Shown here one piece after another: positions 17,822 through 33,492 of a stretch of DNA of 64,000 nt (position 1 is its first letter; every line of letters starts with the position of its first letter). The translations under genes and the position numbers were made by a program. The DNA is from Candidatus Aenigmatarchaeota archaeon (GTDB lineage Archaea > Aenigmatarchaeota > Aenigmatarchaeia > CG10238-14 > SCSR01): positions 195,212 to 259,211 of the forward strand of contig JAUWZS010000002.1 in assembly GCA_030615205.1 (NCBI GenBank). Direction: 5' to 3'. Below the pieces are notes generated by a model. It was not told where the DNA came from and ran no database searches. It was given only the letters and a program-made list of their open reading frames with translations.

Positions 17822-17860
17822 GGGACGCCCAGGGTTGGTGTTTAACTAATGGTTAAGAAA
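17822..17860 (-). repeat. tRNA-Ser 3'-end fragment C
   Basis: Minus-strand TTAAACACCAACCCTGGGCG followed by TCCCA. It keeps the complete acceptor 3' strand and shares its modified T-loop region and upstream TTCTTAACCATTA with copy A. Begins 14 bp after the stop of the Asp-box lipoprotein gene. Confidence 0.6.
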
Positions 17861-22624: not shown

Positions 22625-22662
22625 AGATGCCTAGAGTAGGATTTGAACCAACATAAGGATTA
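22625..22662 (-). repeat. tRNA-Ser 3'-end fragment D
   Basis: Minus-strand GGTTCAAATCCTACTCTAGG then CATC: intact T loop (GTTCAAATC), acceptor strand with two changes. It shares the following CATAAGGATTA (plus strand) with copy E. Lies a few bases after the stop of the zinc-finger gene at 22665. Confidence 0.65.
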
Positions 22663-22664
22663 TT

Positions 22665-22766
22665 TTATTCCATGTTCTTCATGCACTCTTCTGAACAGTA
22701 GAATTTGTTTTTGAACTTCAGCTTCGAGAACGGTATTTCCTTGCCACACCAGTCACACTTCTTCAT
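22665..22766 (-). CDS. 33-aa zinc-finger protein, copy 1
   Basis: Begins MKKCDWCGKEIPF; four Cys in a CxxC...YCSEEC pattern (CDWC and CSEEC) form one treble-clef or MYM-type zinc finger. 27 of 33 residues match the copy at 24960-25061. It is the only gene between tRNA-Ser fragments D and E. Function unknown; too small for more than a single zinc-bound fold. Confidence 0.65.
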   Translation of the reverse strand: MKKCDWCGKEIPFSKLKFKNKFYCSEECMKNME

Positions 22767-22814
22767 ATAATCAGTTTGGTCGACAGACTATAATTATCTA
22801 AATTAACTCCTTGT

Positions 22815-22851
22815 TACGCCCAGGGTGGGATTTGAATCTACATAAGGATTA
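22815..22851 (-). repeat. tRNA-Ser 3'-end fragment E
   Basis: Minus-strand GATTCAAATCCCACCCTGGG then CGTA: the T loop, T-stem 3' strand and acceptor strand are identical to the tRNA-Ser at 26079. It shares the next CATAAGGATTA with copy D. It ends 3 bp before the PH-gene stop codon. Confidence 0.75.
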
Positions 22852-23348: not shown

Positions 23349-23407
23349 AATCAAATTATGTATTTAATTATCAAAAAGGTTTCCCAAAGAAAAAAATGTG
23401 AAATATT

Positions 23408-23455
23408 AACGCCCAAGGTGGGTGTCATCGGCTTGAGGTAGATTTTGGTGTCACA
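23408..23455 (-). repeat. tRNA-Ser 3'-end fragment F
   Basis: Minus strand carries CACCCACCTTGGGCGTTA, the T-stem and acceptor 3' strands with one change. The T loop is replaced by a different sequence that is shared with copy G. F and G agree at 39 of 42 positions. It starts 12 bp after the DEAD-box gene stop. Confidence 0.7.
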
Positions 23456-23466
23456 TCATTATCTTA

Positions 23467-24708
23467 TTAAGAGTATCTGCGGCTTCTCCTATAGTTTGTC
23501 CTGTTCATCACTCTTCCACGGTCACCGAATCTCCTACCTCTGCGACCGCCGAATCTCCCGCTGTACATGTCTGGTCTGCGAACGCCTCTCCTGAACGGCA
23601 CTCTCCTGAATTGGCCGACATGCATCTTCTCGATTTCGTAGTCGAACAGCCTTATTATCCTGCTGAACGAAGGGTGGTCGTCCCTGCACAGGAGTGAGAT
23701 GGCTTTTCCTGTCTTCCCTGCCCTTGCGGTTCGGCCTATTCTGTTCGTGTATTCTTCGGAATACTTCGGTATGGAGTAGTTGAAGATATGGCTGACGTCA
23801 TTGATGTCCAATCCCCTCGCAGCCACGTCTGTGGCCACAAGGAATCTGAACCTGCCGTTGTGGAACATGTCCATCACTTTTTCGCGCCTGGCTTGGGTCA
23901 TGCCTCCATGCAGTGATCCGGCATTGATATTGTTGCTTTTCAGGTTGCTCGAGATCGAGTCAACGTCTCTTCGCGAGTTGCAGAAGATTATGCCGAGCTC
24001 TGGGTTCTCTTTGTCTATCAGATGTACAAGGAGGGAGAACTTCTTGGCACGGTCGACATCGCAGTAGTACTGCTTCAGCATGTTGTCCTGCACCTTGTTC
24101 GCTGTCCTTATCTTCTTCGCGTCTCTTGTGAAACGATCCCTTATCCTCATCAATGCAGATGGCATGGTCGCGCTGAACAGCAGAGTCTGCCTGTCCTTCG
24201 GCAGGCTACGTGCCACGAACTCTATGTCTTCGACGAAACCCATGTTTATCATCTTGTCAGCTTCGTCGAGCACGAATATGCGGATGATGTCTGTGCGGAG
24301 CGTGCCGCGTCGCATGTGGTCCATTACGCGGCCGGGTGTACCGACCACTATCTCTGCTTTTCTCAGCCCACTAACCTGCGGCCCCATCGCAACTCCTCCG
24401 TACACTGTCTGCACGAAAAGGCCTTTGCGCTTGGAGAACTTTTTCAGCTCGCCTGCTATCTGCAAAGCCAGTTCCCTTGTCGGAGCCAACACCATTGCTT
24501 GTAGGCCGCGGCCCTTATCGACCCTTTCTATCATAGGTATTCCGAAAGCAGCGGTCTTTCCAGATCCTGTCTCGGACTGGCCGATCACGTCATGTCCTTG
24601 TTTGATAAGAGGTATTGTCTCGTACTGTATCTTCGTGGGTTTTTCATATCCCATGTCATAGATCGCGCCCAGTACATTCGAATCTATATTCAAGTCTTCA
24701 AATTTCAT
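23467..24708 (-). CDS. DEAD-box RNA helicase
   Basis: 413 aa. ATP-dependent RNA unwinding. All motifs are present in order: Q motif (GYEKPTKIQYETIPLI), I (SETGSGKTAAFG), Ia (APTRELALQ), Ib (VGTPGRVMDHM), II (VLDEADKM), III (FSATM), IV (GIIFCNSRRDVD), V (LVATDVAARGLD) and VI (YTNRIGRTARAGKTG). The tail (about 370-413) is Arg/Gly-rich (RFGGRRGRRFGDRGR), probably RNA-binding. Closest to the DeaD/CshA type. It is bracketed by the 42-bp repeats F and G, and its G+C appears higher than that of its neighbours, which fits transfer. Confidence 0.95.
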   Translation of the reverse strand: MKFEDLNIDSNVLGAIYDMGYEKPTKIQYETIPLIKQGHDVIGQSETGSGKTAAFGIPMIERVDKGRGLQAMVLAPTRELALQIAGELKKFSKRKGLFVQTVYGGVAMGPQVSGLRKAEIVVGTPGRVMDHMRRGTLRTDIIRIFVLDEADKMINMGFVEDIEFVARSLPKDRQTLLFSATMPSALMRIRDRFTRDAKKIRTANKVQDNMLKQYYCDVDRAKKFSLLVHLIDKENPELGIIFCNSRRDVDSISSNLKSNNINAGSLHGGMTQARREKVMDMFHNGRFRFLVATDVAARGLDINDVSHIFNYSIPKYSEEYTNRIGRTARAGKTGKAISLLCRDDHPSFSRIIRLFDYEIEKMHVGQFRRVPFRRGVRRPDMYSGRFGGRRGRRFGDRGRVMNRTNYRRSRRYS

Positions 24709-24959
24709 ATTTTAATCTCACCTATATTTGCTTCTCTTTTTATTTTTTGTTTTCCCAAAGTCACAGAAGCAACAGAATTAGTATGTCACGCCGAATCAGC
24801 ATCAACTAACGCTATTTGTCACACGCTTTGTACCTTGTCTTTTCTTTTCTAATCTATCATGAAATGGACAGTATTTAAACATTTGCATCTGTTTGGATTT
24901 GTCCAGCTTTGGTGTCGACCACTAAGCAAGAAAAATTCTTCTTTCAGAAGGATTGATTT

Positions 24960-25061
24960 TCAATCCATATTCTTCCTGCACTCTTCTGAACAATAGAAGT
25001 AGCCTTTGAACTTGAGTTTGGAAAAAGGTATGTCCTTGCCGCACCAATTGCATTTCTTCAT
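24960..25061 (-). CDS. 33-aa zinc-finger protein, copy 2
   Basis: Begins MKKCNWCGKDIPF and continues YFYCSEECRKNMD, with the same four-Cys finger as the copy at 22665-22766 and only six differences. It lies upstream of the helicase gene, inside the unit bounded by repeats F and G. Confidence 0.65.
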   Translation of the reverse strand: MKKCNWCGKDIPFSKLKFKGYFYCSEECRKNMD

Positions 25062-25125
25062 ATAATCATTTAAGCAGGAAGGCTTTAATTGTCCAGAACC
25101 TCTTTGAAAAATTCCTCAAGGAATG

Positions 25126-25171
25126 AACGCCCAGGGTGGGAGTCATCGGCTTGAGGTGGATTTTGGTGGAA
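25126..25171 (-). repeat. tRNA-Ser 3'-end fragment G
   Basis: Minus-strand ACTCCCACCCTGGGCGTTCA, with T-stem and acceptor strands identical to the tRNA-Ser; similarity continues into ATTCCT beyond the gene end. Otherwise almost identical to copy F. Begins 58 bp after the GTPase stop. Confidence 0.75.
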
Positions 25172-25228
25172 CAACGTTCTTTTACCAAGAAGAATTTTTC
25201 AAGGAAATCTACATCAGCAAGAAAAAAG

Positions 25229-26020
25229 TTACATGCTTTTCAACAGAAGTTTTCCTCTCTGCCAATCGTTTATCAGCGCGAAGTATACACGTTTTTCATC
25301 TATCTTCCCACCTTTTTTCAACATGTTCCTGGCTTTTCCTATCTCCTCGATAATATCTTCAAACTCTTTGTCACCGATTTTAATGCTGTAGAATTCTTCA
25401 AGACGTTTTATCCCACTGTCGAGGAAGATCGTGACTATCTCCCTCGCAACCGCTTCAGGATCAGCGATCTTTGAGGGGTCCAATGTGCCGATTAGCGCGT
25501 GCTTGAGTTCGCTGTCTTCCCCTGTTAAAGGAATGATGCCGGGCGTGTCGATGAGTCCCACGTCAGAGCTGACGCGTACCCATTGGAATCCCCTTGTCTG
25601 GCCTGGTCTTGGACCTGTCTTTGCCCTTCTACGGCCGGCCAGTGCATTGATAAGCGATGATTTGCCTGTGTTCGGATAACCTATGACACCAATTTTCAGG
25701 AACTCGCCAGGCCTGGACCGTTTTTTAACTATTTCGAATATCTTCTTTTTCAGGAGAGTTATACCGCGTCGCTCTCTACTAGAGACAGACACACATGGAA
25801 AAGTTTTGTCAAGCGTTTGTCTGTGCTGTTTGACTGTCTTTTCCGAAACTAAATCCGCTTTGTTTATTACGAGAATCAGTGGTTTCCCAGCCAGTTTGGC
25901 AAGGCGCTCTGCATCCTTGTTCCTTGTAAGTTCAGGCATCCTCGCGTCCAGCACTTCTACAATTACGTCCGACTCTTCGATAACTTCTTTAACAATGTCC
26001 CAAAAATCTCTCATCGACAT
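25229..26020 (-). CDS. Circularly permuted GTPase (YlqF/RbgA family)
   Basis: 263 aa. Ribosome-assembly-type GTPase. The G motifs occur in permuted order: G4 NKAD (about residue 53), G5-like SSRERRG (about 81), G1 GYPNTGKSS (about 114), G2 region GQTRGFQWV and G3 DTPG (about 157). A helical C-terminal RNA-binding domain follows. Both Walker A and the G4 base-recognition motif are intact, so it is probably active. It is the only gene between tRNA-Ser fragment G and the tRNA itself. Confidence 0.92.
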   Translation of the reverse strand: MSMRDFWDIVKEVIEESDVIVEVLDARMPELTRNKDAERLAKLAGKPLILVINKADLVSEKTVKQHRQTLDKTFPCVSVSSRERRGITLLKKKIFEIVKKRSRPGEFLKIGVIGYPNTGKSSLINALAGRRRAKTGPRPGQTRGFQWVRVSSDVGLIDTPGIIPLTGEDSELKHALIGTLDPSKIADPEAVAREIVTIFLDSGIKRLEEFYSIKIGDKEFEDIIEEIGKARNMLKKGGKIDEKRVYFALINDWQRGKLLLKSM

Positions 26021-26078: not shown

Positions 26079-26215
26079 CGCCCAGGGTGGGATTTGAACC
26101 CACAAGGACCGAAGTCCGCTAGCTCTCTGCGTTTTTTATTTTTAGCAAGAGCTTAGCAGGCTCGCACGGCTTTACGCAAAAGCCTTAGTGCCCTACCGGG
26201 TTAGGCGACCTGGGC
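26079..26215 (-). tRNA. tRNA-Ser (probably GCT), class II, with inserted sequence
   Basis: Acceptor GCCCAGG pairs with CCTGGGC, G73 (usual for archaeal Ser). T arm GTGGG-TTCAAAT-CCCAC, long variable arm GGAC-TTCG-GTCC. The only plausible anticodon loop is CTGCTAA after CGAGC, giving GCT. At 137 nt the gene is about 50 nt too long. The extra sequence seems to lie both between the D and anticodon arms (a hairpin GGCTTT/AAAGCC) and after the anticodon loop (A-rich), suggesting two introns. Exact exon borders are not resolved. Confidence 0.75.
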
Positions 26216-31875: not shown

Positions 31876-31888
31876 TTTTGATTTTATT

Positions 31889-31974
31889 GCAGGGGTCCCG
31901 TAGTCTGGTCAATCGGGCGAGGCTTAGGACCTCGTGGCTTAGTGCCTTCGTGAGTTCAAATCTCACCCCCTGCA
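31889..31974 (+). tRNA. tRNA-Leu (TAG)
   Basis: Class II tRNA: acceptor GCAGGGG/CCCCCTGC, anticodon arm CGAGG-CTTAGGA-CCTCG, variable arm with GGC/GCC, T arm GTGAG-TTCAAAT-CTCAC, A73. 86 nt. Its last bases (CACCCCCTGCAT) recur at 32667 and, with one change, at 33477, each time after a single gene. Confidence 0.95.
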
Positions 31975-32075
31975 TCATTTTTGTAGAAAAATCCTTCTTA
32001 ATCGTTAGCAGACCAAACCGAAGGCGAAGCGTTGAGCAAGTATCGCTGAATTTTTATAATATTCAAGTTTACTAA

Positions 32076-32615
32076 ATGTATATGAACAAAATAAATCATT
32101 TTATGTTTGCTGTAGGTTTGTGCTTGATTTTTTTTGAATTAAATTTTATATTAAATTTTATCAATCTGGCTTTCATAATCATATTTTCATTAATATTTGG
32201 AGTTTTGATTGACTATGATTACAAATTTAATAGAAAAGCTCCATGGTATCATAAGAGAACATGGATACAAGAGCCATTAGGATTTATTTTGGTTGGTCTG
32301 CCTCTCGCATTTATTTTAAGTTTATTTAACAAAAACTTCTTTATTTTAGTTTTGGCTCCATATTTTTCTCATGTACTTCTAGATTATCTATGCATTTTTG
32401 GAACATACCCGCTCGCGCCTTTTTCAAAAATAAAGAAAAAGGAAGGTTTTGGCATTTTTATTCCAGATGATTTGTTTATTAAATCTGAAAATCCGAGAAA
32501 TTGGACAAGAAGAGTTAAAGTTAAGAAGATTAAAGGAATTTCAGAAAATTATTTTACAATATTTAATTTAATTTTACTTATTACTATTCTTCTTTTCAAA
32601 CTCAAAATTTTCTAA
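32076..32615 (+). CDS. YdjM/DUF457-like membrane metal-dependent hydrolase
   Basis: 179 aa, four hydrophobic helices. GVLIDYDYKFNRKAPWYHKRTW and FSHVLLDYLCIFGTYPLAPFSKIK give the H...D/HxxxD arrangement of the YdjM-type inner-membrane hydrolases. Biochemical role unknown. It is the only gene between tRNA-Leu and its first 3'-end copy. The start is MYMNKINHF; the second Met is equally possible. Confidence 0.7.
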   Translation: MYMNKINHFMFAVGLCLIFFELNFILNFINLAFIIIFSLIFGVLIDYDYKFNRKAPWYHKRTWIQEPLGFILVGLPLAFILSLFNKNFFILVLAPYFSHVLLDYLCIFGTYPLAPFSKIKKKEGFGIFIPDDLFIKSENPRNWTRRVKVKKIKGISENYFTIFNLILLITILLFKLKIF

Positions 32616-32661
32616 TGTGATCCTAGATATAAGAAAAGTCCATGATTTAACTACAACTAGT

Positions 32662-32680
32662 ATGCACACCCCCTGCATTA
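32662..32680 (+). repeat. tRNA-Leu 3'-end fragment 1
   Basis: ATGCACACCCCCTGCATTA; the 12-nt CACCCCCTGCAT is identical to the end of the tRNA-Leu at 31974. Same orientation as the tRNA, 46 bp after the preceding stop. Confidence 0.55.
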
Positions 32681-32747
32681 CACCTTTAGTGAGTTTTCAG
32701 TGACACAAATTGCATCTCTTTTTAAGTTTTTCTCATAAAATAATATC

Positions 32748-33392
32748 ATGATAATAAAAGCAGTCATATTCGATTGGGGAGATGTTTATCTCAATTGGAA
32801 AAGAGAATTTTGGAATGTTATAGCTGAAAGAATAAATGTGGGAATAGACGCTTTGGAAGAAGAAGTTAAGAAATATTGGGATTTATTGGGTAAGGGAACT
32901 ATTGACGATAAAGAATTTTGGAACAGATTGGGAGAAAGTTTAAAAATAAAGATTCCTGATAATTCGGAGATGTGGGTTGAAGAAAGATTTAGAGAAGATT
33001 TTTCGGTGAACAAAGGTGTAGAAGCTATTGCAAGAAATATGGCGAAATTTGGGTACAAAACAGCTTTACTTTCTAACACTGAAAAGACTAGTCTTAGTTA
33101 TGGAAAAAGAAATGGGTGGACAAAATACTTCGATATAATAATAGCCTCTTGTGATTTCGGTATAATGAAACCAGATGAAAAGATATATAAAATAGCTTTA
33201 AATAAAATTGGAGAAAGCCCAGAACATTGTATTTTTATAGAAAATGATATCAGATACACAGAGGTGGCGAAAAAATTAGGAATGAACACCATTTTATTCG
33301 ACAATAGAAAGCAGGATATAAATTATCTAAAGACAGAATTGATTAAGCTTGGTGTAAAGAGAGAAATTTTTGAAAATTTGAGTAAGTCTTAA
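32748..33392 (+). CDS. HAD-superfamily phosphatase (YihX-like)
   Basis: 214 aa. HAD fold: motif I FDWGDV (nucleophile Asp9; the usual second Asp is Gly, as in the DxGxV subgroup), helical cap (about 15-90), motif II ALLSNTE, motif III MKPDEKIY and motif IV FIENDIRYTEVAKKLG. Resembles YihX-type sugar-phosphate phosphatases. Its second-Asp substitution may change the reaction. Single gene between tRNA-Leu fragments 1 and 2. Confidence 0.82.
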   Translation: MIIKAVIFDWGDVYLNWKREFWNVIAERINVGIDALEEEVKKYWDLLGKGTIDDKEFWNRLGESLKIKIPDNSEMWVEERFREDFSVNKGVEAIARNMAKFGYKTALLSNTEKTSLSYGKRNGWTKYFDIIIASCDFGIMKPDEKIYKIALNKIGESPEHCIFIENDIRYTEVAKKLGMNTILFDNRKQDINYLKTELIKLGVKREIFENLSKS

Positions 33393-33473
33393 TGATTTCA
33401 AATTTCCAGTGTTACGATTGTAAGTGCACTGGATTAACATTCTGTGCATTGTGTGTATAAGAATAATAATCGC

Positions 33474-33492
33474 ATGCACCCTCTGCATCATT
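33474..33492 (+). repeat. tRNA-Leu 3'-end fragment 2
   Basis: ATGCACCCTCTGCATCATT; 15 of 16 bases of CACCCCCTGCATCATT at the tRNA-Leu end, and like fragment 1 preceded by ATGCAC. It lies about 80 bp after the HAD gene stop. Confidence 0.55.

Follow-up and report, generated by a model that had tools for sequence, protein, structure and literature searches.

In the archaeal DNA analysed here (a stretch of 64 kb, hereafter the window), an intact tRNA-Leu gene with anticodon TAG is followed on its own strand by a small tandem array in which single genes alternate with short copies of the tRNA 3' end, in the order tRNA-Leu, YdjM-like gene, copy 1, HAD gene, copy 2. The best reading of this arrangement, which we hold with confidence just short of even, is serial site-specific integration at the junction of the T-stem and the acceptor stem by a tyrosine recombinase acting in trans. 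The window lies on a 350-kb contig, and the assembly to which it belongs comprises 1.17 Mb and is 88.5% complete. This assembly looks mixed, since the tRNAs on six small contigs have bacterial features; the window itself is archaeal, an archaeal RNase P RNA is present in it, and the tRNAs on the two large contigs have no encoded CCA and frequently contain introns. We infer a DPANN lineage for the host archaeon; the phylum is represented by 156 genomes, and those listed are mostly smaller than 1.3 Mb.

The target gene was placed at 31889-31974 (plus strand) by Rfam and at 31888-31976 by ARAGORN. As reference site we took CACCCCCTGCATCATT (31964-31979, plus strand), which is the 3' T-stem/acceptor strand of tRNA-Leu together with 5 bases beyond it. 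The initial annotation had reported copies of this end at 32667 (12 bases) and 33477 (15 of 16), each after exactly one gene, and all of this was found again: copy 1 (32667-32678, 12/12 bases) lies 703 bp and copy 2 (33477-33492, 15/16 bases) 1513 bp downstream of the reference site, both on the plus strand like the tRNA, and each interval holds a single open reading frame (ORF) with a Pfam match. Measured from site to site, the units are 703 bp and 810 bp long. The copies start at the T-stem/acceptor stem junction and do not go further than the 3' T-stem/acceptor strand plus a few following bases. Over the 12 acceptor-side bases the distal copy 2 has one difference from tRNA-Leu and the proximal copy 1 has none, as expected if the distal copy is the older. 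Both copies are also framed by the inverted repeat ATGCA/TGCAT, with spacers that differ (7 and 5 bases); the odds of this are modest (0.034 and 0.039 each) and were calculated post hoc.

Matches of 12-16 bases are short, and chance does produce score-11 matches of tRNA ends (one upstream and another on the reverse strand in the survey of 171 tRNA places described below), so that two meaningless matches had to be considered; several counts make this very improbable. When up to 3 mismatches are allowed, CACCCCCTGCATCATT has 4 matches on both strands of the window, among them tRNA-Leu itself and one unrelated place at 25532, where 0.44 are expected. In a Markov simulation of the 1.6-kb stretch (n = 3000), 2998 sequences had no match, 2 had one and none had the two that are observed, which places the pair above the frequency of chance raised by the initial annotation. 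Exact matches to the 12-mer CACCCCCTGCAT are present at 3 places of the 1.17-Mb genome, in tRNA-Leu(TAG), in copy 1 and in another tRNA-Leu gene on contig C29, and its reversed control does not occur at all. Across 30 tRNA-Leu loci, this window included, the 10-base end recurs downstream twice (here and in the relative G011) versus not once in three control directions. Finally, both copies fall within gene gaps, starting 51 bases (copy 1) and 84 bases (copy 2) after the preceding stop codon.

This regular position behind a stop codon would also suit signals acting at the RNA level, for processing or termination at gene ends, in place of scars in the DNA. We regard this explanation as very improbable, since the copies lack the 5' acceptor strand and the sequence around them, folded as DNA, is not more stable than its shuffled versions (z 0.08 and -1.09). 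By the same values an attC-like fold was not found around the two Leu copies, nor was one found at four copies of a tRNA-Ser end described below (z 1.74 to -1.15).

The cargo of the first unit is a YdjM-like membrane protein of 179 aa (32076-32615, plus strand; Pfam PF04307 YdjM, E 8e-11), and that of the second a HAD-family hydrolase of 214 aa (32748-33392, plus strand; Pfam PF00702 HAD, E 2e-15). Both genes are AT-rich, with a GC content of 0.256 and 0.310, respectively, compared with 0.38-0.46 in seven genes around them (FtsZ, AsnRS, a 230-aa gene, flippase, RNase H, IscU and eIF2-alpha, of which RNase H, IscU and eIF2-alpha were named by eye and the flippase was tested against Pfam), and both look foreign. 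YdjM was detected in only 2 of the 156 genomes of the phylum (E 1e-6 or better), and the second one, 56% identical, is located some 0.5 kb behind a tRNA-Val. HAD relatives are present in 63 of the 156 genomes (E 1e-10 or better), none of them close, the best being a 40% paralogue in the same genome; being common across the phylum, HAD alone is no sign of transfer and was discarded as a mobile marker. The flippase was likewise given up for marking the flank: it has matches in 21 of 57 genomes, with this one counted, and all the non-self matches are only 22-28% identical.

Searches for the cargo genes among viral contigs, for the array DNA among phages and for YdjM among plasmids found no relative. 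An exact match to the 23-base tRNA-Leu end was not found in the viral contigs; the 17-base framed site has one match there, in a contig whose neighbouring ORFs are, by eye, those of a tailed bacterial phage. This lone match was taken as chance and a free element carrying the site was dropped as a candidate.

A second array in the window follows the same pattern, as the initial annotation had proposed. It belongs to an intron-containing tRNA-Ser (26079-26215, minus strand) and has the same layout, with four 3'-end copies and a possible fifth, all on the minus strand: copy 1 at 25127-25141 (15/15), copy 2 at 23409-23422 (13/14), copy 3 at 22816-22836 (21/21), copy 4 at 22625-22653 (24/29) and the possible copy 5 at 17824-17835 (12/12), which stands 38 bases past the stop of a 1571-aa gene. 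They lie 938, 2657, 3243, 3426 and possibly 8244 bp downstream, and copies 3 and 4 extend to the T loop. Two further repeats were noticed in this array. A mini zinc-finger ORF, named by eye, occurs twice (22663-22798 and 24958-25093, minus strand), the two being 78% identical over 136 bases; and two of the copies have about 50 more bases in common upstream of the tRNA-derived part (25123-25190 and 23405-23472, minus strand; 68 bases at 82% identity), which gives the impression that the units share an end.

From the two arrays the initial annotation had drawn a general mechanism, and this stands only in part. The pattern is not confined to tRNA-Leu, since the tRNA-Ser array shows it; the arrays are found at 2 of the 42 archaeal tRNA genes checked, tRNA-Ser and tRNA-Leu only, which rules out a general rule for all tRNA genes of this genome. 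The 42 genes comprise 40 detected by Rfam on the two large archaeal contigs, behind which as much as 12 kb was scanned if the stretch was long enough, and 2 tRNA-Leu genes missed by Rfam. No array follows the tRNA-Leu gene on C29 with the identical 12-mer at its end.

The survey was extended to 171 tRNA places in this genome and the relatives G010-G014, among the tRNA matches listed for the relatives (G012 at few loci). Of the matches that reach the 3' end, 12 were downstream, a single one was upstream and a single one was on the reverse strand, with 932 kb scanned downstream and 379 kb upstream. The 12 downstream matches comprise six in the Ser/Leu arrays, one on a bacterial-looking contig, one other tRNA-Leu gene, one in G014 and three at the chance score of 11, and a gapped scan added the tRNA-Leu of G013. 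Convincing among them are those of the Ser and Leu arrays, of the bacterial-looking contig and of G014, together with the gapped copy of G013. Permuted queries at a score of at least 12 gave a mean of 2.3 matches, compared with 7 for the real ones, a number that was equalled in one of the 12 permutations. This control is not clean because tRNA ends resemble one another, and its outcome makes weak single copies elsewhere untrustworthy.

Some places met in the survey are recorded for themselves. At a tRNA-Lys (L046, contig C26, 134569-134688) a second copy at 135919-135992, 1.3 kb downstream, is a broken duplicate without the 3' end and was rejected as an end copy. On the bacterial-looking contig C28 (L039), an integrase gene stands just upstream of a tRNA on the same strand (631 and 2076-2149), and a 34-base displaced copy of the tRNA 3' end is found 1445 bp downstream. 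In G014 (L237, contig C15, 7276-7830), a tRNA is followed by a 110-aa gene on the opposite strand and by a degraded tRNA-like sequence with 33 bases of the tRNA end, 426 bp after the tRNA; this copy may instead be a tRNA pseudogene.

Relatives, which the initial annotation had suggested comparing, gave a divided picture. The genomes compared at the tRNA-Leu locus are members of the family and the order, all from other genera. In several of them the presence of IscU or eIF2-alpha downstream identifies the tRNA-Leu(TAG) locus; in the family members the flank is partly syntenic and too diverged for base-level comparison. In favour of the pattern, G013 has one good copy, with its tRNA-Leu followed by a single 86-aa gene (no Pfam or PHROG match), by a 22-base copy with one gap (TTCAAATCTCTCC-TCTGCACTA) that lies 319 bp downstream and extends to the T loop, and then by IscU. 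G011 has two short copies (9 and 10 bases, at 413 bp and 985 bp) and uncertain genes: the ORF list gives only a 79-aa ORF with its start inside the tRNA before the 413-bp copy, and the 985-bp copy, which sits within an ORF of the opposite strand, may be due to chance. Against it, no copy was seen behind the tRNA-Leu of G010, whose gene is the closest (91% over the gene), nor at most other relatives' tRNA-Leu loci; G014 has a 597-aa transporter and a TerC-like gene, both named by eye, and no clear copy. The gene directly behind tRNA-Leu is different in each relative's locus that was read. Such different content, with few copies, points to the site as a hot spot whose scars would be recognisable in three genomes at most.

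We infer that site-specific recombination inserted two small DNA units, of 703 and 810 bp, in succession at the 3' end of tRNA-Leu(TAG), and that each unit consisted of one gene and a short copy of the 3' T-stem/acceptor strand of the tRNA. Each integration would restore the tRNA and push the older tRNA end, with all that lies beyond, downstream, and two integrations would yield the succession tRNA, gene, copy, gene, copy. The enzyme would most likely be a tyrosine recombinase, because no other integrase family is known to target tRNA genes (PMC4383910). The usual crossover subsites include the T/acceptor junction (PMC4383910). Since it is not encoded in the units, it would have acted in trans, supplied as for a satellite or a cassette. 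Short att sites are usual in some archaea: those of thaumarchaeal elements are down to 8 bp long, with a median of 17 (PMC6563490). Counting for integration are copies far more frequent than by chance, all downstream in the orientation of the tRNA and extending to its 3' end, the like array at tRNA-Ser, the one-gene unit of G013, the differing genes behind tRNA-Leu in relatives, the AT-rich cargo with its sparsely distributed YdjM, and the tyrosine integrases elsewhere in the genome; counting against it are the lack of an integrase in or beside the units, G010 and most other relatives without a copy, the second tRNA-Leu with the same 12-mer left unused, the 2 of 42 tRNA genes affected, and the cargo without relatives in the viral, phage and plasmid searches.

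Candidate enzymes exist elsewhere in the genome. The tyrosine-integrase family PF00589 has 14 matches, several of them on small contigs or broken by stops, and two intact tyrosine integrases with a C-terminal zinc ribbon are encoded, one on each large archaeal contig (C29:397471-398682 and C26:10964-12163). One of them (L061:2472-3683, 403 aa) starts about 45 bases after a tRNA at C29:397339, on the same strand, which is the layout of pNOB8-type elements (PMC3293823); a second att site for it was not found before the contig end. No integrase was found in or adjoining the tRNA-Leu units, whose intervals hold only the YdjM and HAD ORFs, and in the stretches read of the integrase-bearing contigs C18, C20, C30 and C35 there were no tRNA end copies at a score of at least 14.

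A serious rival is that the units are remnants: integrase-bearing elements would have integrated in tandem at tRNA-Leu, and deletions would have left one gene each between att copies. We consider this possible, and it gains from the integrases and stop-broken integrase fragments present in the assembly; for archaea there are descriptions of elements integrated in tandem at a single tRNA and of integrases lost once integration had taken place (PMC8371274, PMC6563490). It is opposed by the state of the intervals, each of which contains a single intact gene and short gaps but no debris, and by the need for deletions that spare an att copy and a whole gene repeatedly, twice here, several times at tRNA-Ser and once in G013. 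Because both intervals are compact and undamaged, we favour units that never carried an integrase over deletion remnants.

We think it quite improbable that the copies are target-site duplications made by a Cas1-type enzyme (casposase) or another transposase-like enzyme, with growth beside the tRNA as in a CRISPR array. Their polarity and their length of 12-16 bases would fit, and Methanosarcina casposons use tRNA-Leu. Tandem casposon integration is also known (PMC6563490). Against this stand the lack of any Cas1 match in the genome (88.5% complete), on which a casposase was rejected, the lack of terminal inverted repeats abutting the tRNA-Leu copies when the sequence was read by eye, and a copy length that varies from 12 to 29 between arrays.

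What the array means depends on which of these accounts holds. If the units move as single genes, small-genome archaea would acquire genes singly at their tRNA genes, in a cassette-like manner; if they are remnants, they would be ordinary integration debris. A further, unlikely possibility is that certain tRNA genes in this archaeal family are integron-like platforms, at which a trans-acting tyrosine recombinase would load circular one-gene cassettes at the 3' end and the tRNA would be the fixed entry site of a growing array. The arrangement also provides a concrete search pattern: a tRNA gene, then one gene, then a short end copy.

Among known systems, the archaeal tRNA-targeted islands and integrated elements with a tyrosine integrase of SSV or pNOB8 type resemble this array in the intact tRNA with a displaced 3' fragment of the same orientation downstream and in the tandem re-use of one site; they differ in that the units here are 0.7-0.8 kb long, hold one gene and have no integrase. 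Thaumarchaeal cryptic elements span 2.6-98 kb and are defined with an integrase (PMC6563490). Islander, for its part, works in the length range of 2-200 kb and rejects candidates that are below 2 kb or without an integrase (PMC4383910). At tRNA-Leu the intact tRNA and the same-orientation 3' fragment downstream are both present, no integrase lies between them, the PF00589 hits of the genome being elsewhere, and the lengths are 703 and 810 bp. Islander-like surveys would miss such units, because an integrase and at least 2 kb are required.

Casposons share short duplications and tandem insertion at one target, and differ by the Cas1 that this genome lacks and by the cargo, which here consists of the YdjM and HAD genes only. 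In the gene capture in archaeal chromosomes attributed to She et al. (2001, 2004), genes also end up between att copies at tRNA genes; there, the captured piece reportedly belongs to a larger element.

Integron cassette arrays, including archaeal CALINs, are alike in having single genes of the same orientation with recombination sites between them and an integrase able to act in trans; they differ in that the sites here are tRNA ends, not folding attC sites, and that the platform is a tRNA gene. The tRNA-Leu copies fail the attC site test of archaeal integrons, and the integron integrase model TIGR02249 gave 34.6 and 56.5 bits, compared with a cut-off of 265, for the 2 of the 14 PF00589 matches that were scored, both from the archaeal contigs. 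Archaeal integrons are already in print (PMC9668308). A literature search at the level of abstracts, with few subscription papers, brought up no description of tRNA-gene arrays in which the units are single genes and lack an integrase. Repeated integration in tandem at a single tRNA, and the loss of integrases, are already known (PMC8371274, PMC6563490 and, on tRNA fragments, PMC9897764); what is unusual here is that each unit consists of one gene and has no integrase.
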